Shown: positions 52,457 to 58,945 of the stretch, piece after piece | Numbering within the stretch: position 1 is the stretch's first letter | Layout: each line of letters starts with the position of its first letter | Assembly: GCF_003287275.1 (NCBI RefSeq) | Contig: NZ_QEVW01000014.1 | Location: 310,001-374,000, forward strand | Reading direction: 5' to 3' | DNA from: Paenibacillus taichungensis | GTDB taxonomy: Bacteria > Bacillota > Bacilli > Paenibacillales > Paenibacillaceae | DNA: 64,000 nt | The notes under the pieces: model-generated | Seen by the model: the letters and a program-made list of their open reading frames with translations, nothing else | Database searches by the model: none | Told to the model about the DNA's origin: nothing | Program-made: the position numbers and the translations under genes

Positions 52457-53443
52457 TCATCTTTTTGCTGTCTGTTCAGCAAAATAATGATCCACTGCGT
52501 ATTTAAATGAATCAATAAAAACTGAAACTGCCTTTTTACTCACTTCTGCATTGGGTTGAATGATATCAAAACCATGATAGCAGCCTTTGTAGATTTCGAA
52601 ATCAACAGGTACACCTGCTTTTCTTAAGTTTTCTACATACTGAATCGTTTCATCACGAAATGGTTCCAAATCACCAACAAAAGTGACAGTCGGAGGAAGA
52701 TTGCTGTAATCGGTAGCTCGGGCAGCAGCCGCATAAGAAGGTACATCCTTGCCTGCCAATTCGCCAAGATACAATTTCCAAGCCCATTGATTATAATCAG
52801 AGTTCCAAATAGGGGCATTATTGTCCTTAGCGGATTCAGTAATCATTCTGTCATCGATCATGGGATACAGTGGCATTTGATATGCAATGTTCACTTCTCC
52901 CTTATCTCTGGCATACAGAGTAAGTGCGGCGGTAAGTCCTCCTCCAGCGCTTTCTCCACCTACCATGAGTTGATCTTCTCTAATTCCAAGTTCTTTCACA
53001 TGGCTTTTCATCCATAAAAGGGTTTCGTAACAATCATTTAACGCTGCTGGATAGGGAGCATCAATCGATAATTGATAATCTGGCGCAACGACTACACAAT
53101 GACTTGCATTAATTAATTTCTTGTAGGTTGCCCCGAATTGCTCCGGGTTTCCCATCGCATATCCCCCTCCATGTATCCAAAGTACACCTGGCGCATTTCC
53201 TTTGGGATGTAGAGGTTTATAAATTCGAACACGTATCTTGGAACCATCACTTGTACGTGGTATCCACTCTTCACTGCACTGTAAACCGTCGATGTCTTTC
53301 CCCGCTGTCGCATCCGATCTTTTTTTGATTTTCCTCATCGAGTTAAGCCACTTTTCTTCATGAGAAGATTTCATTAATAAATCAATCAGTTTGCCTTTCA
53401 CTCTTAATTGTTTATCAATCATTTTAGTTGTAACTCTCATCAT
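52457..53443 (-). CDS. Alpha/beta hydrolase, hormone-sensitive-lipase-like esterase
   Basis: 328 residues. The HSL family signature is complete: oxyanion motif HGGG (residues 91-94), nucleophile elbow GGESAGGG with Ser165, acid in FVGDLEPFRDE and His in GCYHGFDI. It should be a cytoplasmic carboxylesterase; there is no signal peptide. AAAGGAAGG precedes the start (53443 or the next codon). A TetR gene 23 bp upstream in the same direction probably controls both. Confidence 0.93.
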   Translation of the reverse strand: MMRVTTKMIDKQLRVKGKLIDLLMKSSHEEKWLNSMRKIKKRSDATAGKDIDGLQCSEEWIPRTSDGSKIRVRIYKPLHPKGNAPGVLWIHGGGYAMGNPEQFGATYKKLINASHCVVVAPDYQLSIDAPYPAALNDCYETLLWMKSHVKELGIREDQLMVGGESAGGGLTAALTLYARDKGEVNIAYQMPLYPMIDDRMITESAKDNNAPIWNSDYNQWAWKLYLGELAGKDVPSYAAAARATDYSNLPPTVTFVGDLEPFRDETIQYVENLRKAGVPVDFEIYKGCYHGFDIIQPNAEVSKKAVSVFIDSFKYAVDHYFAEQTAKR

Positions 53444-53466
53444 GTTCCCTTCCTTTCGGGAGTATT

Positions 53467-54081
53467 CTAAAATCCGCTTCGCAAGTAGTTGAACATGTCA
53501 TCCAAATATTGATCCAATGTCATCTCCCCAGGAGAATCTGTTGACTCTTGCCCTGGCAGCAGCACGTCGATGCTTCCATCAAATATTGCGAGAACAGCAC
53601 CGTATACAGCCCCCGAAAGAAGATGGGAATATCCTTGGGGATACCGTCCCTGGGATAAATCAGTTAATGTTTCCTGAGCCGTAGCTTGCAAACGAGAAAG
53701 CACGCTGAGAAGATAGGGTTCAAGCGTCGGATATTGTGTGGAAAGCGATACGAGTTGACGCATTTTGGAAACATACTCTGTGGTTAGGGATCTCTTTATC
53801 AACACATATAGTGCATCCAACGGCAGTATGTTTTCTTGTATGATTTCATTTAATGGCTCGTCTTCGTAATGATCTGTTGTAAGTATTGCCGCCATGGCTA
53901 TCGCTTCTTCTTTACAGGAAAAATGATTAGCGAACGTTTTTCTGGAGTATCCGGCTCTTTGAACGAGATCATCGATAATGAATCCATCCAATCCCCGCTC
54001 AACCGCAAGTTCAAACGCTGCGCTGGCCAGCGCTTTGGTAGTTGCTTCTCTTTTGATATCACGCAAGCTTGGTTTATTCAT
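53467..54081 (-). CDS. TetR-family transcriptional regulator
   Basis: 204 residues. Helix-turn-helix: GLDGFIIDDLVQRAGYSRKTFANHFSCKEEAIAMA. The C-terminal part is helical without a recognised ligand signature. It forms an operon with the esterase gene. The ribosome site is weak (AGGCAGG about 16 bases away, or TAGGG). A 34-bp inverted repeat 65 bp upstream is the probable autoregulatory site. Confidence 0.9.
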   Translation of the reverse strand: MNKPSLRDIKREATTKALASAAFELAVERGLDGFIIDDLVQRAGYSRKTFANHFSCKEEAIAMAAILTTDHYEDEPLNEIIQENILPLDALYVLIKRSLTTEYVSKMRQLVSLSTQYPTLEPYLLSVLSRLQATAQETLTDLSQGRYPQGYSHLLSGAVYGAVLAIFDGSIDVLLPGQESTDSPGEMTLDQYLDDMFNYLRSGF

Positions 54082-54144
54082 CCCTAAATGACGCCTGCCT
54101 TTCTCTTACGATAGATTAAGTCTTCATTCCTTCACAATAATATT

Positions 54145-54178
54145 ATTACCCATTGTGTATTATTACGCAATGGGTAAT
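54145..54178 (-). promoter_or_regulatory. Long inverted repeat in the TetR-esterase promoter
   Basis: Two 15-bp arms (ATTACCCATTGTGTA and TACGCAATGGGTAAT) with one mismatch and a 4-bp centre. The minus strand offers TTGCGT as -35 with TAATAA/TAATAT as -10 at the right edge of the repeat, so binding would block transcription. It also falls 40 bp beyond the ligase gene stop and could fold in RNA, but lacks a T-run. Confidence 0.65.
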
Positions 54179-54218
54179 TAAAGTTTTTCTTTTCAGTTTA
54201 TATTCCATTCAAACACTC

Positions 54219-55271
54219 TCAATTCTCATCAATGGCGAGATCTATGAGCTGGTTAAGAATATTTGCATAAGTCATGCCGCCAGCTTGGAGCATGTTAGGA
54301 TAGCGGGAATTCGATGTGAAGCCAGGTATCGTATTGACCTCATTGAACACAATTCTTCCGTCATTGTTCAGGAACATATCTACGCGTGCAAACCCTCTGC
54401 ACCCAAGCGTTTTATAAATAGTCAGAGCGCTCTCTTTAACCTTCCTGGCAGTGTGCTCATCAATGCGGGCTGGCAAGTGAATCTTCGAACTGATCAAGGA
54501 GTACTTTTCCGAGAAGTCAAAAAAGTGCCCCTGTAGCTCAATCTCATCAATCATGCCGATTATGGGATCAGAATTGCCCAATACAGCACAACCCACCTCA
54601 AAACCGTTAACATTTTGCTCAATGACCACTTTGCTGTCGTGTATGAAGGCGTGTTCAGTTCCGTTAATCAATTCTTGCCTATTGTTCACCTTCGATATGC
54701 CTAATGACGATCCTGATCTAGCCGGTTTAACAAAGAGTGGGAAACCCATTGCTTCTATTGCTGGTAGCACTTCTTCCACCCGTTCACTCCTATGTAATGT
54801 AAGGGAACGTGGCGTATCTATACCTGCTGCCTGCACCAGTTTATGAGCCAGTTCCTTGTCCATACATAACGCAGAGGATAACATGCCACATCCAACAAAC
54901 GGTATACCCGACAGTTCCAATAATCCTTGCAAGGTCCCATCTTCACCGTATTTGCCGTGAAGCACTGGAAATACAACATCAATCGGTGTTACATGATATT
55001 CCGTATGAACTAGCTCAATGAGCCCTTTGACTTCTCTACTCGGCGAGAAAAAGGATGGGATACAACTCGGATGCAAATGCCATCGATCATTGCGAATATC
55101 CTCAACCGTTCCACTATATCTGAGCCAAGCACCTTGCTGTGTAATTCCAATTAACACAAGATTGTATTTTTCCGTATCCAAATTTTCAATCACTGAAGCG
55201 GCTGAGCTCAAAGATACGTTATACTCACCTGAACATCCGCCAAACAAGACCGCAATCGACTTTTTCTGCAT
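54219..55271 (-). CDS. D-Ala-D-Xaa ligase, D-Ala-D-Ser (VanG/VanC) type
   Basis: 350 residues, ATP-grasp fold. N-terminal IAVLFGGCSGEYNVSLSSA and VVFPVLHGKYGEDGTLQG, the ATP region FVKPARSGSSLGISKV, and the metal/C-terminal ENVNT-type motif FNEVNTIPGFTSNSRYPNM define the D-Ala-D-Ala ligase family. The specificity loop reads FDFSEKYSLISSKI (251-264). D-Ala-D-Ala enzymes have a YDYxAKY form and D-lactate enzymes (VanA) a quite different HQEVEPEKG loop, whereas D-Ala-D-Ser ligases such as VanC and VanG, as I recall them, have EKYxLxSxKI. NGFEVGCAVLG and SSALCMDKELAHKL are also VanG-like. It is the third gene of an operon with VanXY-like and racemase genes, 52 bp after the VanXY stop. Family certain; D-Ser use is inferred. 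Confidence 0.82.
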   Translation of the reverse strand: MQKKSIAVLFGGCSGEYNVSLSSAASVIENLDTEKYNLVLIGITQQGAWLRYSGTVEDIRNDRWHLHPSCIPSFFSPSREVKGLIELVHTEYHVTPIDVVFPVLHGKYGEDGTLQGLLELSGIPFVGCGMLSSALCMDKELAHKLVQAAGIDTPRSLTLHRSERVEEVLPAIEAMGFPLFVKPARSGSSLGISKVNNRQELINGTEHAFIHDSKVVIEQNVNGFEVGCAVLGNSDPIIGMIDEIELQGHFFDFSEKYSLISSKIHLPARIDEHTARKVKESALTIYKTLGCRGFARVDMFLNNDGRIVFNEVNTIPGFTSNSRYPNMLQAGGMTYANILNQLIDLAIDEN

Positions 55272-55323
55272 CGCAATAGCCTCCTATAATGTGATATGTC
55301 TAAAAAATCCTTATTGCTATAAC

Positions 55324-56130
55324 TTAATTTTTGGATAAAGTCGTAACAATGAATCCTTCACGATTCGTTCCTGATATCCGATAAGAATCACAACTCAAGA
55401 TCGGGATATGGCTGGATTTCCCTTTATCCGCGGGAACATAATATATCTGGATTGTCATGTCCTTTTGTTTCATCGTGAGCTGCTCTCCAGAGTATCGATA
55501 TTGCTGTACAAAATCGATGTATTCCTCTAAACATAGATTGTTTTCTTCCATGATTTTGGAATGGGGATATCCTACATATCTAAAATGCCATGGCTCATAA
55601 GCAATACGAGTGATTGATTCTTTTTCTTGTTTATATCGAAGGATAAAACCGAATTTTATGGCATGTTGTCTGAAGGACTTGTAAATGCCCGTATCCGGAA
55701 AGGAAGGAGCAATAAAATCGATATTCGATTTCAATTTACCCACATCGATAGCCAACCCCGTTTGGTGTTCACTATGGTCAGGCAAGGCTACGTATTTGGA
55801 AGTATATTCGGAACCCTGTTCTATCAAACAATCTTGATAGATCTGGACTTGATCTTCTTTGGTTCGATATGCGCTGACAGCGACAATTTCATCCGTCCCC
55901 CCACAAGCTTTAAGCAGAGCATGAAATTGATTGAAGCACTGCTTCTCCAGAAGCATCTCCTTATTTAACTTCTTTATTGAAGGCAGGGAATCCAATGACT
56001 CTAATTCATGTACTTGTACTTGCCTTCTAATTGGGTTTTGATCATTTATTAACACTAAGTGCCCTTGAAATCGTTCTTCGTTACTTACGCTGATCTCAAT
56101 ATGTTCTTGTACGACTTCCCGTGATTTCAT
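55324..56130 (-). CDS. VanXY-like D,D-dipeptidase/D,D-carboxypeptidase (M15B)
   Basis: 268 residues from an ATG at 56130 (GGGGAG upstream), overlapping the end of the racemase gene by 35 bp. No signal peptide or TM segment, so cytoplasmic as in VanXY rather than VanY. The M15 zinc and catalytic residues are all present: SEHQTGLAIDV (H122, D129) and YEPWHFRYVG (E179, H182). The segments SEYTSKYVALPDHSEHQTG and ITRIAYEPWHFRYVGYPHS closely match what I recall of enterococcal VanXY. A C-terminal extension of about 60 residues (IQIYYVPADKG, ISGTNREGFIVTTL) is absent from VanXYC but, to my memory, present in VanXYG. It would remove D-Ala-ending precursors. Confidence 0.87.
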   Translation of the reverse strand: MKSREVVQEHIEISVSNEERFQGHLVLINDQNPIRRQVQVHELESLDSLPSIKKLNKEMLLEKQCFNQFHALLKACGGTDEIVAVSAYRTKEDQVQIYQDCLIEQGSEYTSKYVALPDHSEHQTGLAIDVGKLKSNIDFIAPSFPDTGIYKSFRQHAIKFGFILRYKQEKESITRIAYEPWHFRYVGYPHSKIMEENNLCLEEYIDFVQQYRYSGEQLTMKQKDMTIQIYYVPADKGKSSHIPILSCDSYRISGTNREGFIVTTLSKN

Positions 56131-57250
56131 GATGAAACTCCCCACCTTCTTTATAGATTCGTAATACTCTGTCCGTGATGGAACTCGTTATTTCTTGAGA
56201 GACACCACCGATATGATTGGCCAGTTCCTGAATCTGAATTTCCTGCTCACCTGAATAGCCAATGAAGGTCACCTTTGATCCTTTGGGAAAATACATCGGA
56301 AGCTTGACCATCAATTGATCCATGGAGATTTTCCCAATAATTTCTGAACGAACCCCTTCCACCAACACCTCCGAATTTTGCATTCTCTGCGACCATCCAT
56401 CGGCATAGCCGATAGGCACTGTTCCGATCCATTGATCTGAGTCTGTTTGATAAGCATTGTTGTAGCCCACATATTCGCCTTTTTTTAATTTTTTCGTTTG
56501 TAATAATCTACTGTGCATACTGAATGCCGGCTTTAATTGGATGTTAGGTACTAGTTTTTCCGGATAAAAGCCATAGATTGCAGCTCCTATGCGAGCCATA
56601 TCCATGCACAATTCCGGGAATCGAAGTGCTGCTACACTTCCCGCACAGTGATAATGATTGATTGGAATCCGTGACATACTGCTCCATTCTTTCATTTCCA
56701 GGAAGCGTTGAATCTGAAGCTGTAGATAACGGCTGTCTGCCTCACCTGCAGTCGCGAAGTGGGTATAGAACCCGTCAACTACTACATCTGGCGCTCTGAG
56801 CCAAGGAACCATTTCAAGCCACTCTTCTTGTGTGCGTATACCGATTCGTCCAAGTCCAGTATCCATTTTCACATGCACAGATAACTTATGCGGGGTATGA
56901 ATAGGCTTGTATTTTCTCATCTCATGAAACCATGACGCCTGTGTAACAGTAAGCATCAAATCATGTTCCAGAGCCAGAGGTACAAGTTCGGGACGAATCG
57001 GAATCAAAATAAGAATCGGTTGTTTTAAGCCAGCATTTCTAATGCGGATGGCTTCTTCAATGAAGGCACACGCTAAATAATCCGCGCCTGCCTCTACTGC
57101 TTCTTTGGCTGTCTCAATATCTCCATGCCCGTATGCATTTGCTTTAACAACTGCCATTAGTTTGGTCGAACGGGGTAGAAATTTGCGGATCTGTATGACA
57201 TTCTCGCGAATTTGCGTTAAATCTATTTCAGCCCAAGTATCTCGGTACAT
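56096..57250 (-). CDS. Alanine-racemase-family enzyme, possible serine racemase
   Basis: 384 residues, fold type III PLP racemase. The PLP Lys is K36 in AVVKANAYGHG; the catalytic Tyr is Y263 in EYVGYNNAYQ; VPIGYADGWSQ and the ISMDQLMV loop complete the site. At the position aligned with Tyr354 of Geobacillus alanine racemase (ISYRVPR) it has SITDRVLR, Asp360. In VanT serine racemases this position is Asn, and changing Tyr354 to Asn is reported to favour serine, so a non-alanine substrate is plausible. It lacks the membrane L-Ser uptake domain of enterococcal VanT. First large gene of the operon with VanXY and ligase; GGGGAG lies before the ATG and a small ORF overlaps its start. Confidence 0.85.
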   Translation of the reverse strand: MYRDTWAEIDLTQIRENVIQIRKFLPRSTKLMAVVKANAYGHGDIETAKEAVEAGADYLACAFIEEAIRIRNAGLKQPILILIPIRPELVPLALEHDLMLTVTQASWFHEMRKYKPIHTPHKLSVHVKMDTGLGRIGIRTQEEWLEMVPWLRAPDVVVDGFYTHFATAGEADSRYLQLQIQRFLEMKEWSSMSRIPINHYHCAGSVAALRFPELCMDMARIGAAIYGFYPEKLVPNIQLKPAFSMHSRLLQTKKLKKGEYVGYNNAYQTDSDQWIGTVPIGYADGWSQRMQNSEVLVEGVRSEIIGKISMDQLMVKLPMYFPKGSKVTFIGYSGEQEIQIQELANHIGGVSQEITSSITDRVLRIYKEGGEFHHEITGSRTRTY

Positions 57251-57326
57251 CCCATGATCTCCCCAACCGAATAGATGGCTTGTTTTTAGTTCCTATTTTC
57301 AGCAGATCCGCATATGCACTTTTCAT
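57228..57326 (-). CDS. 32-residue leader ORF overlapping the racemase start
   Basis: An ATG at 57326 with a full AGGAGG ribosome site opens a 32-codon frame (beginning MKSAYADLLK) that ends in a TGA inside codons 7-8 of the racemase gene. Its ribosome site is better than that of the racemase itself, so it may act by translational coupling or as a regulatory leader. No family recognised; basic, no membrane segment. It may alternatively be a chance ORF using a transcript leader. Confidence 0.45.
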   Translation of the reverse strand: MKSAYADLLKIGTKNKPSIRLGRSWDVPRYLG

Positions 57327-57469
57327 TTTTTTGGCCTCCTAAAGGTGTGAATGTAGTGCGTTGAATTGATTTAAGTGTATATTAAGGCGACTTCAGCTCC
57401 TATCGATCAAACTTACACAAAACTGACAACGATGTAAGATTACAGATTTGAACATCTCATAGTTACAAC

Positions 57470-57493
57470 AAAAAAAGCCGCCAATAGGCGACT
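57470..57493 (-). terminator. Second terminator insulating the ligase operon
   Basis: GTCGCC and GGCGGC-type arms around ATTG, with seven T following on the minus strand. The core GCCGCCAATAGGCGACT is identical at 59111. Confidence 0.82.
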
Positions 57494-57539
57494 CGTAAAA
57501 GATAACGGAAATGGACTTCAGATAATAAAGTCTACAAGA

Positions 57540-57565
57540 AGAAGCCTGCGCTAGGGCAGGCTTCT
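57540..57565 (-). terminator. Terminator after the anti-sigma gene
   Basis: AGAAGCCTGC and GCAGGCTTCT form a 10-bp perfect stem with a 6-nt loop, immediately after the anti-sigma stop; the following minus-strand bases are T-rich. Confidence 0.82.
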
Positions 57566-57569
57566 AACA

Positions 57570-58424
57570 TTATTGCGGATTTTCATTACTCATCCAGCTG
57601 TCGACATGCAGTGGTTCACTGTAGTCTTCCCGGTCAGTAAATTCTTTCAGGTGTTTCTCTGCATCTGCACGGTTATCGAAGGCACCCATAACGACGGTGA
57701 ATTTTCCATTTTGAGTCTGCACAACGCTACTGCCATCGGCAGAATACTGCTCAGCCAACATGGCCAGTGCCTCACCCTGCTCCATGTCTTCGCTTCGCAC
57801 GAAGAAAAGTTCATGCGCTTGTGTTGACTTCACGCCGCCGGAAGACAGCTTCAACTGAATATATCCAGGCTGCTGATACTCTGACACGGAATAATCCACA
57901 TCATCCTTAAGTTCAACCACAAAGCCAATCGCAGAATCATCCAAAATGATATTTTGATAGACTTCTTTTACATTCTTAAGTGCTTTAATATCCTGCTCCA
58001 GCTTGTCATAATCCAGATGACGTACCCCATTGAAGGTGAAGATCAAGCGATTCGGCCCTTCCTTGTGATCCACAGTATATGATGGAGCAGAGGTGATCTG
58101 TTCACCATCGATCTGAAAATTAATGTTTAGTGTATCCGATTCTTTGGTCGTGGTAACCGAAACCCCATCTGTGCGCTCCCCGCCACCACCAACTTGCAGA
58201 ATTTTGACGACAGAACCTATAACAGGTACATCGGATAATGCCTTGGCCACACCTGGTACGTTGGCTGTTATCATCACCGCAGCACAGGCTGCAACCAGGG
58301 AGGAACTGCGCCAGATCATCATTTTTCTTCGTTTTTGATTTCGTGCACGCTGACGGGCTTGCTGAATAACTCCGGAAAGGCCGGATGGAATATTGATCTG
58401 TTCATATCGTTCTTTTCCTGTCAT
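57570..58424 (-). CDS. Membrane anti-sigma factor with C-terminal SPOR-like domain
   Basis: 284 residues. A short basic cytoplasmic part (1-36) that would bind the sigma factor, one TM segment (about 38-56, SSLVAACAAVMITANVPG), and an extracellular part with the DUF4179-like arrangement (SDVPVIGSVVKILQVGGGGE) followed near the C-terminus by a SPOR-like repeat GKFTVVMGAFDNRADAEKHLKEF, which in other proteins binds denuded peptidoglycan glycan. Its ATG overlaps the sigma stop by four bases (ATGA). The pairing indicates signal-dependent release of the sigma factor, plausibly by a cell-envelope change. The SPOR call rests on pattern only. Confidence 0.8.
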   Translation of the reverse strand: MTGKERYEQINIPSGLSGVIQQARQRARNQKRRKMMIWRSSSLVAACAAVMITANVPGVAKALSDVPVIGSVVKILQVGGGGERTDGVSVTTTKESDTLNINFQIDGEQITSAPSYTVDHKEGPNRLIFTFNGVRHLDYDKLEQDIKALKNVKEVYQNIILDDSAIGFVVELKDDVDYSVSEYQQPGYIQLKLSSGGVKSTQAHELFFVRSEDMEQGEALAMLAEQYSADGSSVVQTQNGKFTVVMGAFDNRADAEKHLKEFTDREDYSEPLHVDSWMSNENPQ

Positions 58425-58945
58425 GTAAAATCAACCTCTTCCTTGGTCAGATGTTTTTTGAGTTTGTTTAAGATCTTATAGAACCTGGTCTTCACCGTGC
58501 TTTCCGGCAGGGACAGCACCTCCGCCATATCCTTGAATCGCTGATCCTGGAAAAATTTCAAAACGATAAATGCCCGATCTTCGGGATGCAGGTGATCAAG
58601 TGCTTCGTACAAATCCCATTGCTCTTCAAGCCCCATGGAACTCTCTTCGGCTGCAAACGGTATTATACTGTCTTCCATATACGTGTATTTCTTCTTTCGT
58701 CTGATGTGATCCAGAGAACAATTGATGACGATCCGGGTCATCCAGGTTTCAAAATAATCAGGACTATTCACTTTTTCATAAGATAGAAAACCTTTATAAG
58801 AGGCTTCCGATATGATCTCCAGTGCTTCCTGTTCATTTTTCACATAAGAGAATGCGAAGCGATAAAGCTTTTCTTTACATGCCTCCAGACGATCACTGAA
58901 CTGCTGTTCAGTTAGTGCTGTACTTACCTTGCTCAGTTTGTCCAC
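58421..58945 (-). CDS. ECF-type RNA polymerase sigma factor
   Basis: 174 residues. Region 2: FAFSYVKNEQEALEIISEASYKGFLSYEKVNSPDYFETWMTRIVINCSLDHIRRKKK; region 4: LHPEDRAFIVLKFFQDQRFKDMAEVLSLPESTVKTRFYKILNKLKK. It resembles the SigV/SigW-side ECF groups of Bacilli. The start is a GTG at 58945 with only a poor GGGGG site, so expression may be low. It is coupled to the anti-sigma gene. The 250 bp upstream show no convincing ECF autoregulatory promoter. Confidence 0.92.
   Translation of the reverse strand: MDKLSKVSTALTEQQFSDRLEACKEKLYRFAFSYVKNEQEALEIISEASYKGFLSYEKVNSPDYFETWMTRIVINCSLDHIRRKKKYTYMEDSIIPFAAEESSMGLEEQWDLYEALDHLHPEDRAFIVLKFFQDQRFKDMAEVLSLPESTVKTRFYKILNKLKKHLTKEEVDFT

Follow-up and report, generated by a model that had tools for sequence, protein, structure and literature searches.

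A predicted D-Ala-D-Ser gene set of apparently mosaic ancestry in Paenibacillus taichungensis

We analysed a 64,000-nucleotide stretch of the Paenibacillus taichungensis genome (contig NZ_QEVW01000014.1, positions 310,001 to 374,000; hereafter the window), in which a first-pass annotation had marked a compact VanG/VanC-like operon; loci and genomes used for comparison carry L and G numbers, and contigs of the strain's own genome (G000) carry C numbers. The operon consists of three genes on the minus strand, read from 57250 to 54219: RAC (56096-57250), predicted to encode a soluble alanine/serine racemase of 384 aa; XY (55324-56145), a VanXY-like D,D-peptidase of 273 aa with a GTG start and an N-terminus that is not hydrophobic; and LIG (54219-55271), a predicted VanG-type D-Ala-D-Ser ligase of 350 aa. 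RAC and XY overlap by 50 bp and a gap of 52 bp separates XY from LIG. The family matches are far above chance, with hidden Markov model (HMM) E-values of 2e-167 for LIG (VanG model), 5.8e-65 for XY (VanXY-G) and 1.8e-100 for RAC (Alr). Since no 19-residue stretch exceeds 1.6 on the Kyte-Doolittle scale (maxima 1.15 in RAC, 0.87 in XY and 1.47 in LIG), no membrane domain is predicted in any of the three proteins. Searches of the whole window with the VanR and VanS proteins of a related locus (L125) returned no match at E 1e-3; the best VanR-like proteins of the genome, at 310 and 301 bits, fall below the cut-off of 350 and are located on other contigs. The racemase-XY-ligase order, the racemase without a membrane domain and the lack of a nearby VanRS pair were thus recognized correctly at first pass. 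The upper end of the span given there (54219-57326) is not the racemase start: position 57326 is the ATG of a 32-codon leader open reading frame (ORF), and RAC starts at 57250.

LIG scored 556.3 bits against the curated VanG model NF000091 (cut-off 495), which supports the earlier prediction of a D-Ala-D-Ser ligase. Its best match in the PDB is 4fu0 (entry title 'D-alanine--D-alanine ligase 7'), which we take to be VanG. The omega loop (FFDFSEKYSLISSKIHLPARI) is shared with VanG-type ligases, reading EKY..SSKI as in VanG against AKY-DGQ in the strain's own Ddl, and it lacks the EPEKGSEN insertion present in L182-L184 and looked for as a sign of the D-Lac type; furthermore, the D-Lac model score (382.8) is below the cut-off of 550, and profile searches found no VanH or VanX among the neighbours scanned. 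Placement inside housekeeping Ddl, named at first pass as one outcome that would count against a D-Ser ligase, was not seen: the own Ddl (C33) is 39% identical to LIG and occupies a separate branch of the ligase tree. A third strong Dala_Dala_lig_C match in the genome (174 bits, in a 328-aa frame) is found at G000:C52:504612-505187. The ligases of L179-L181, 46-47% identical to LIG, have a DDKYL loop that differs from those of VanG, VanA and Ddl, and are followed by a gene of about 340 aa and then by a racemase with Asn at the gate position described below.

XY matches Pfam VanY (107.7 bits), has no signal or membrane segment, and carries SEHQTGLAID at 125 and EPWH at 184, thereby fitting the SxHxxGxAxD plus ExxH combination characteristic of VanXY; among solved structures, 4f78 and 4mur are the closest to it. 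Further XY-like genes were encountered elsewhere. On C33 of the same genome (L193:5516-8254), a VanRS-like pair stands immediately ahead of a second XY/VanY paralogue, some 6 kb from the housekeeping ddl that comes after it; G037 (L195) likewise has an XY paralogue in front of ddl; in L158, L159, L160 and L162, a second XY-like gene, 28-34% identical to XY, is positioned just upstream of a VanG-type ligase.

RAC scored 336.4 bits on the alanine racemase model TIGR00492 (cut-off 168). Among solved structures it is nearest to Geobacillus Alr (phmmer, 350 bits, versus 175 to the serine racemase 4ecl, which we take to be VanTG), the reverse of the racemase in the canonical cluster L126 (345 to 4ecl and 205 to Geobacillus Alr). 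Lys36 and Tyr263 are the equivalents of Lys39 and Tyr265 of the Geobacillus enzyme, and Gln352 aligns without gaps with its gate residue Tyr354, a position occupied in VanT by Asn (Asn696); RAC does not have the VanT-type Asn. An Asp further along, considered for the Tyr354 column, was ruled out by counting along the alignment. Gln occurs in 11 of 11 racemases with the window's gene order, in 9 of 9 from a second type of cluster described below, and in L350. Asn was read in 50 of 52 ligase-XY-racemase loci (L135 and L268 being unreadable) and in 9 further loci, and Tyr in the Alr-like L349 and L353 and in the own Alr. In the racemase tree, the Gln group joins the Tyr-bearing L349 and L353 (support 96) with the Asn group apart (99), which tentatively suggests, on three Alr-like rows, that the Gln-gate racemases have an origin separate from the VanT Asn group. 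A precedent for serine use exists in the Gln-gated AlrTt, whose racemase activity on L-Ser is 28% of that on L-Ala and drops sharply in the Q360Y mutant (PMC4517790). The missing membrane segment does not set the window's racemase apart, as had been proposed, because 17 of 52 ligase-XY-racemase loci share it.

Within the genus, LIG was found in 9 of 75 genomes (86-100% identity), the copy in G073 being split over two frames. At the family level, a ligase at E <= 1e-80 is present in 73 of 394 genomes, and one at an identity of at least 56% in 59, the ligases beyond those 59 being more distant and including VanA-like ones; samples of the class (23/398) and phylum (39/398) were scored at a threshold of 1e-85. 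Judged by these matches, D-Ser-type ligases are not rare in Paenibacillaceae, and Paenibacillus vanG ligases are already in print, including 'vanGXT without vanRS' in P. thiaminolyticus and P. dendritiformis (PMC11273654), so that the expectation of an exceptional find in Paenibacillus was not met. Gene order was read in the neighbourhoods of 50 of the 59 genomes (G166, G167, G325, G358, G337, G090, G311, G109 and G318 were left out). The order RAC-XY-LIG was present in 12 of the 50, namely the window, eight genus genomes (L117-L124), G209 (L125), G157 (L127) and G165 (L131, the same contig as in P. campinasensis 7537-G1, L256), and the ligase came first in 37 of the 49 loci with a ligase call; loci without such a call were L188 (G111) among the 50 and L166 and L178 among the other ligase loci. 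The racemase preceded the ligase in none of 19 class and phylum loci (20 taken, one of them L166). The nearest ligase-first clusters (L126, L128-L130 and L132) have ligases 73-81% identical to LIG; in L126, L128-L130 and L132-L135, the racemase is 32-36% identical to RAC and the peptidase 44-49% to XY.

The relatives of RAC led to a different type of cluster. At E <= 1e-95 they occur in 80 of 388 family genomes, 13 at an identity of at least 71% (the 12 RAC-XY-LIG genomes and G204) and 67 at 45-66%; the latter group shares no member with the 59 genomes bearing a VanG-type ligase. Nine of the 12 neighbourhoods read (L341-L351 and L353; the exceptions are L349, L350 and L353) consist of another ligase gene, here called LIG', then RAC and XY (both confirmed by tblastn in 9 of 9 loci), then a gene of 352-385 aa. 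This last gene matched VanT membrane models in seven of seven cases tested (E <= 1e-69), at scores below the cut-offs for full-length VanT (236-251 bits versus 900) and for the VanT-L membrane subunit (152-179 versus 675), and is called VanTm-like here; the remaining two have Pfam Acyl_transf_3 above cut-off, and these VanT membrane models are also matched by the genes that follow LIG in L125 and L127. LIG' is 36-39% identical to LIG. Its highest score comes from a Ddl model, at 389-441 bits, below the cut-off of 449 in four of four tested, and it lies above the cut-off of a general Ddl subfamily model. These LIG'-RAC-XY-VanTm clusters of Paenibacillaceae (L341-L348 and L351; for example L344:5152-9256 and L341:4214-8322), adjoined by a VanR/VanS-like pair in L341 and L343 and by genes of similar size in others, are possibly an undescribed D-Ser-type system.

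Phylogenetic analysis placed the operon's genes in different company. In the ligase tree, the RAC-XY-LIG rows join VanG-type ligases, with L126 nearest (support 99), while RAC and XY join the LIG' clusters (99 in both trees, the XY tree holding 69 rows), with L344 nearest (94 and 93, respectively). Grouping with L126 was rejected by the approximately unbiased (AU) test for XY (p-AU 2e-46) and RAC (2e-7). Topology tests used 23 chosen rows per gene; the trees omitted the near-copies L118-L122, L142, L143, L159, L170 and L192 and the split-ligase locus L124, the ligase tree also omitted L349 and L353, and racemases longer than 440 aa were trimmed to their last 390 residues. Taken together, the trees indicate that the operon is a mosaic of two ancestral clusters, with a VanG-type ligase joined to RAC and XY of the LIG'-RAC-XY-VanTm lineage; neither the trees nor the AU tests gave all three genes a common VanG-cluster ancestry. 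The description as a compact VanG/VanC-like operon overlooks this mixed ancestry. L125 and L127 also carry a gene for a penicillin-binding protein (PBP2), and because the PBP2 of the L126 cluster is 84% identical to theirs, PBP2 may have arrived together with the ligase. Such PBP2-like genes are located within or beside VanG-type clusters at L125:9167-11182, L127:9172-11181 and L126:2864-4894, and the protein might be adapted to D-Ser-ended substrates.

A trace of the exchange appears to survive ahead of RAC. Three loci, L124 from the same genus together with L125 and L127, have a leader ORF there that opens like LIG' (start MKRMLFTIYFGKSIEHDVSLISVYAD in L127; start of LIG' MKTNLYILYGGKSVEHEVSLKTAF in L344), aligning to the LIG' N-terminus with scores of 57-70, reached by 0 of 500 shuffles in each case, and fitting it better than the N-termini of VanG-type ligases (24-41) or Ddl (32-51). 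On these alignments, the stub in the three relatives is best read as the trace of a lost LIG'. A shorter leader, probably a remnant of the deleted LIG' gene, is present in the window (57228-57326, minus strand, 32 codons with an AGGAGG site) and in seven further loci of the genus, and aligns with the second half of the L124 leader; the two versions tested, those of the window and L120, scored no higher than shuffles.

Between leader and upstream neighbours, a promoter-region motif (CTTACATCGTTGTCAG, 57423-57438, minus strand) is conserved in the genus loci L117-L124 and recurs before RAC in L131 (one mismatch) and before LIG' in L344; it was absent before RAC in L125 and L127. The genome contains a single exact match and one more with one mismatch, compared with 15 for the reversed control, and three loci with VanR-like regulators (L193/L355, L354 and L356) do not contain the motif even when two mismatches are allowed; a trans-acting VanR regulon was rejected on these grounds. 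Riboswitch or T-box control was likewise rejected, as no Rfam match reached its gathering score in the window and one sub-threshold match (E 0.15) was taken as chance. Upstream, on the minus strand, are genes for an RsiV-like anti-sigma factor (57570-58424; 46.8 bits, below the cut-off of 250) and a sigma-70 family factor of extracytoplasmic function (ECF) size (58421-58945; 174 aa, Pfam Sigma70_r2 and Sigma70_r4_2 above cut-off), and downstream are a TetR and an esterase gene. The sigma/anti-sigma pair precedes the operon in 9 of 9 operon-bearing genus genomes. We nevertheless rejected it as an operon partner and count both genes as neighbours: the anti-sigma gene is also found where the operon is missing (28 of 75 genomes of the genus have this gene and 9 of 75 the ligase), no sigma/anti-sigma homologue was found in the stretches fetched for L125, L127 and L131, and a terminator-like hairpin (57475-57494, minus strand) stands between, although it counts as a consensus match only because the scanned region has four such sites against a shuffle mean of 2.8. 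The sigma factor is also retained in G016, which has no operon.

To evaluate constraint, the ratio of nonsynonymous to synonymous substitution rates (dN/dS) was determined against seven genus loci (L117-L123, which excludes L124 and thereby the split ligase of G073), giving 0.08-0.19 for RAC, 0.12-0.41 for XY and 0.12-0.17 for LIG; against a plasmid copy the values were 0.17, 0.22 and 0.16, respectively. By this measure, all three genes are under purifying selection. In G016, a segment of about 5.0 kb (window 52532-57557) has been lost; because the last codons at the 3' end of the esterase gene are kept, this was read as a later deletion, and an empty insertion site was rejected. In G204, the racemase gene contains an in-frame TAG, and neither XY nor a ligase was present in the 16 kb read. 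The VanTm, PBP2, VanR and VanS genes of L125 left no trace in the window, L117-L124, L131, L334, L340 or L364. The plasmid copy (L364, NZ_CP145893.1, 120655-149704 with flanks) belongs to pY5S7-1 of P. amylolyticus Y5S-7 from soil in Quebec (374,980 bp, circular), on which RAC-XY-LIG is present with open frames. Since the operon there is flanked by pieces of the chromosomal-site neighbours (anti-sigma, TetR, esterase and metE), the plasmid has captured a chromosomal stretch. Genes annotated as TrbC/VirB2, PrgI and DUF87 (type IV secretion-like) lie about 7-11 kb away, MOB-suite classified the plasmid as non-mobilizable, and it alone, among 621 matching plasmid records, has a ligase above 60% identity.

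The explanation we favour, and consider probable, is a soluble three-gene D-Ser set, mosaic in origin, that acts on peptidoglycan precursor ends. In the cytoplasm, RAC would produce D-Ser as well as D-Ala, its gate, which in ordinary Alr is narrowed by Tyr354, being widened by Gln352; the VanG-type LIG would couple D-Ala to D-Ser; and the cytoplasmic XY would destroy competing D-Ala-D-Ala and trim D-Ala-ended precursors. The sequences themselves show which genes are present, their order and family placement, the mixed ancestry, the stub of LIG' in three relatives, the selection, the deletion and the copy on a plasmid. We infer substrate specificities, D-Ser in the wall, expression control and any resistance, and propose the route from L-Ser through D-Ser to the dipeptide, with removal of D-Ala-D-Ala, because it is the established VanG pathway (PMC4405338). 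RAC and XY would derive from a Paenibacillaceae LIG'-RAC-XY-VanTm cluster that lost LIG' through a deletion, with a stub remaining in some relatives, and the VanG-type ligase would have been inserted after XY; G209 and G157 also have VanTm, PBP2, VanR and VanS, unlike the window lineage. To a fuller account of a ligase swap we give even weight: a so far undescribed LIG'-RAC-XY-VanTm cassette would have lost its own ligase and taken a VanG ligase, its Tyr-to-Gln gate change would be independent of the Tyr-to-Asn change of VanT, the result would be an importer-free three-gene D-Ala-D-Ser module, later captured by a plasmid, and LIG' would perhaps represent a separate family of ligases for D-Ser or another D-residue.

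Several observations weigh against this D-Ser reading. On the curated VanXY models applied (NF000380 and NF000149), XY reached 218.9 bits for VanXY-G (cut-off 500) and 209 for vanXY (cut-off 250). RAC passes the alanine racemase model only, its 293.2 bits on the vanT-G C-terminal model being below 460, and LIG is below cut-off on the general D-Ala-D-Ser model (398.7 versus 520) and above two general Ddl subfamily cut-offs (Ddl model score 390, one cut-off being 262). The genome also has a normal Ddl and Alr, and a search for a VanTm-like protein in it, run without a positive control, found none, that is, no partner for L-Ser uptake. The operon is less constrained than a housekeeping gene, since the adjoining metE has a dN/dS of 0.03-0.05 against six of the seven loci (one near-identical pair, 0.44). 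On ancestry, the C-terminal half of the LIG' stub is visible by eye and not significant, support for the LIG'-cluster grouping falls to 62 in the reduced XY set, and placing the RAC-XY-LIG ligases with LIG' was not rejected in the reduced ligase set (p-AU 0.108), which we read as a rooting matter because that set has no Ddl outgroup. A Gln gate alone is no proof of serine use by RAC, and AlrTt prefers Ala and is a weak enzyme (PMC4517790). Furthermore, a disc test found P. thiaminolyticus NNS5-6, a strain for which vanG, vanXY and vanT are predicted, to be susceptible to vancomycin (zone 21.5 mm; PMC11428215).

Vancomycin resistance from the operon is unproven. Because D-Ser types confer low-level, often inducible resistance, disc tests leave the question unsettled. 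A VanG strain is recorded at 16 ug/ml (PMC4405338), and two isolates near P. taichungensis and P. amylolyticus, which may or may not carry the operon, were vancomycin-sensitive by disc (PMC11769508).

Among other explanations, the one that survives best, although we consider it unlikely, is a spare Alr and a spare Ddl making D-Ala-D-Ala only, as a wall-synthesis backup or a buffer against D-cycloserine-like inhibitors, with XY serving recycling. The model scores of RAC, its nearest solved structure in Geobacillus Alr, and the presence of a Ddl and an Alr elsewhere in the genome, which makes the operon copies paralogues, all fit; yet LIG exceeds the VanG cut-off with a loop unlike that of the own Ddl, RAC has the Gln gate, a D,D-dipeptidase in the same operon would degrade the product, and L125 and L127 have VanTm, VanR and VanS beside the same three genes. 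Somewhat less probable still is a decaying relic without present function in the window strain, as might be read from the missing VanTm, PBP2 and VanRS of L125, the split ligase of G073, the in-frame TAG in the G204 racemase, the deletion in G016 that left the esterase 3' end and a dN/dS above that of metE; against it, the window and the plasmid both have all three frames open, dN/dS is well below 1, and the genus loci share a conserved promoter region. In-place rearrangement of a single ordinary VanG operon, with its genes shuffled and its VanT domain trimmed, has in its favour that the three functions equal those of VanG-XY-T and that racemases without predicted membrane segments are common in VanG-type operons of the family (17 of 52 ligase-XY-racemase loci), but is very improbable given the AU rejection, for RAC and XY, of grouping with L126, the ligase's nearest canonical relative, the Gln instead of Asn at the gate, and the LIG' stub upstream of RAC in L124, L125 and L127.

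The favoured D-Ser set can be compared with known systems. Enterococcus VanL, which we take to have VanT split into VanTm and VanTr (the comparison also draws on the NCBIfam VanT-L models), resembles it in having a separate soluble catalytic racemase, and L125, L127 and the LIG' clusters share with VanL a separate VanTm-like gene; unlike VanL, the window lineage has no VanTm at all, and the gene order differs. The LIG' clusters are 50-67% (RAC) and 47-56% (XY) identical and share the Gln gate and, in L344, the promoter motif, differing in their own ligase and separate VanTm-like gene. The VanG operon of E. faecalis BM4518 likewise combines a racemase and a VanXY-type peptidase with a VanG-type ligase, and it strictly requires the genes for these three (PMC4405338); it is arranged as vanY-W-G-XY-T with a membrane-bound VanT and vanURS, whereas the window operon has the order RAC-XY-LIG, no membrane part, no linked VanR/VanS, and RAC and XY of another lineage. 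Ligase-first Paenibacillaceae vanG clusters (L126; P. glacialis, L255/L128; 'vanGXT' of PMC11273654) have closely similar ligases, 73-81% identical in the nearest; relative to them the order is inverted in the window, and their gate residue is Asn (L135 unreadable). AlrTt of Thermoanaerobacter tengcongensis (4y2w) shares the gate Gln and has measurable L-Ser activity (PMC4517790), in contrast to which its sequence lineage and operon context are different and it is no resistance gene. A VanXY gene is mentioned in a P. amylolyticus strain (PMC12246864), and in the literature searched, which left most subscription papers outside, no description was found of the RAC-XY-LIG order, the LIG'-RAC-XY-VanTm cluster or the plasmid operon.

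A resistance-gene predictor labels such an operon 'vanG cluster' at 31-55% identity, a label that hides its mixed origin and unproven phenotype. As the sequences are read here, D-Ala-D-Ser gene sets would be modular, with a ligase half and a racemase/peptidase half that can be exchanged from one cluster to another, and alanine racemase seems to have given rise to the racemase half on more than one occasion. Should the operon be active, it would be a working D-Ser set without a membrane VanT or VanRS, already present on a soil-bacterium plasmid with type IV secretion-like genes.

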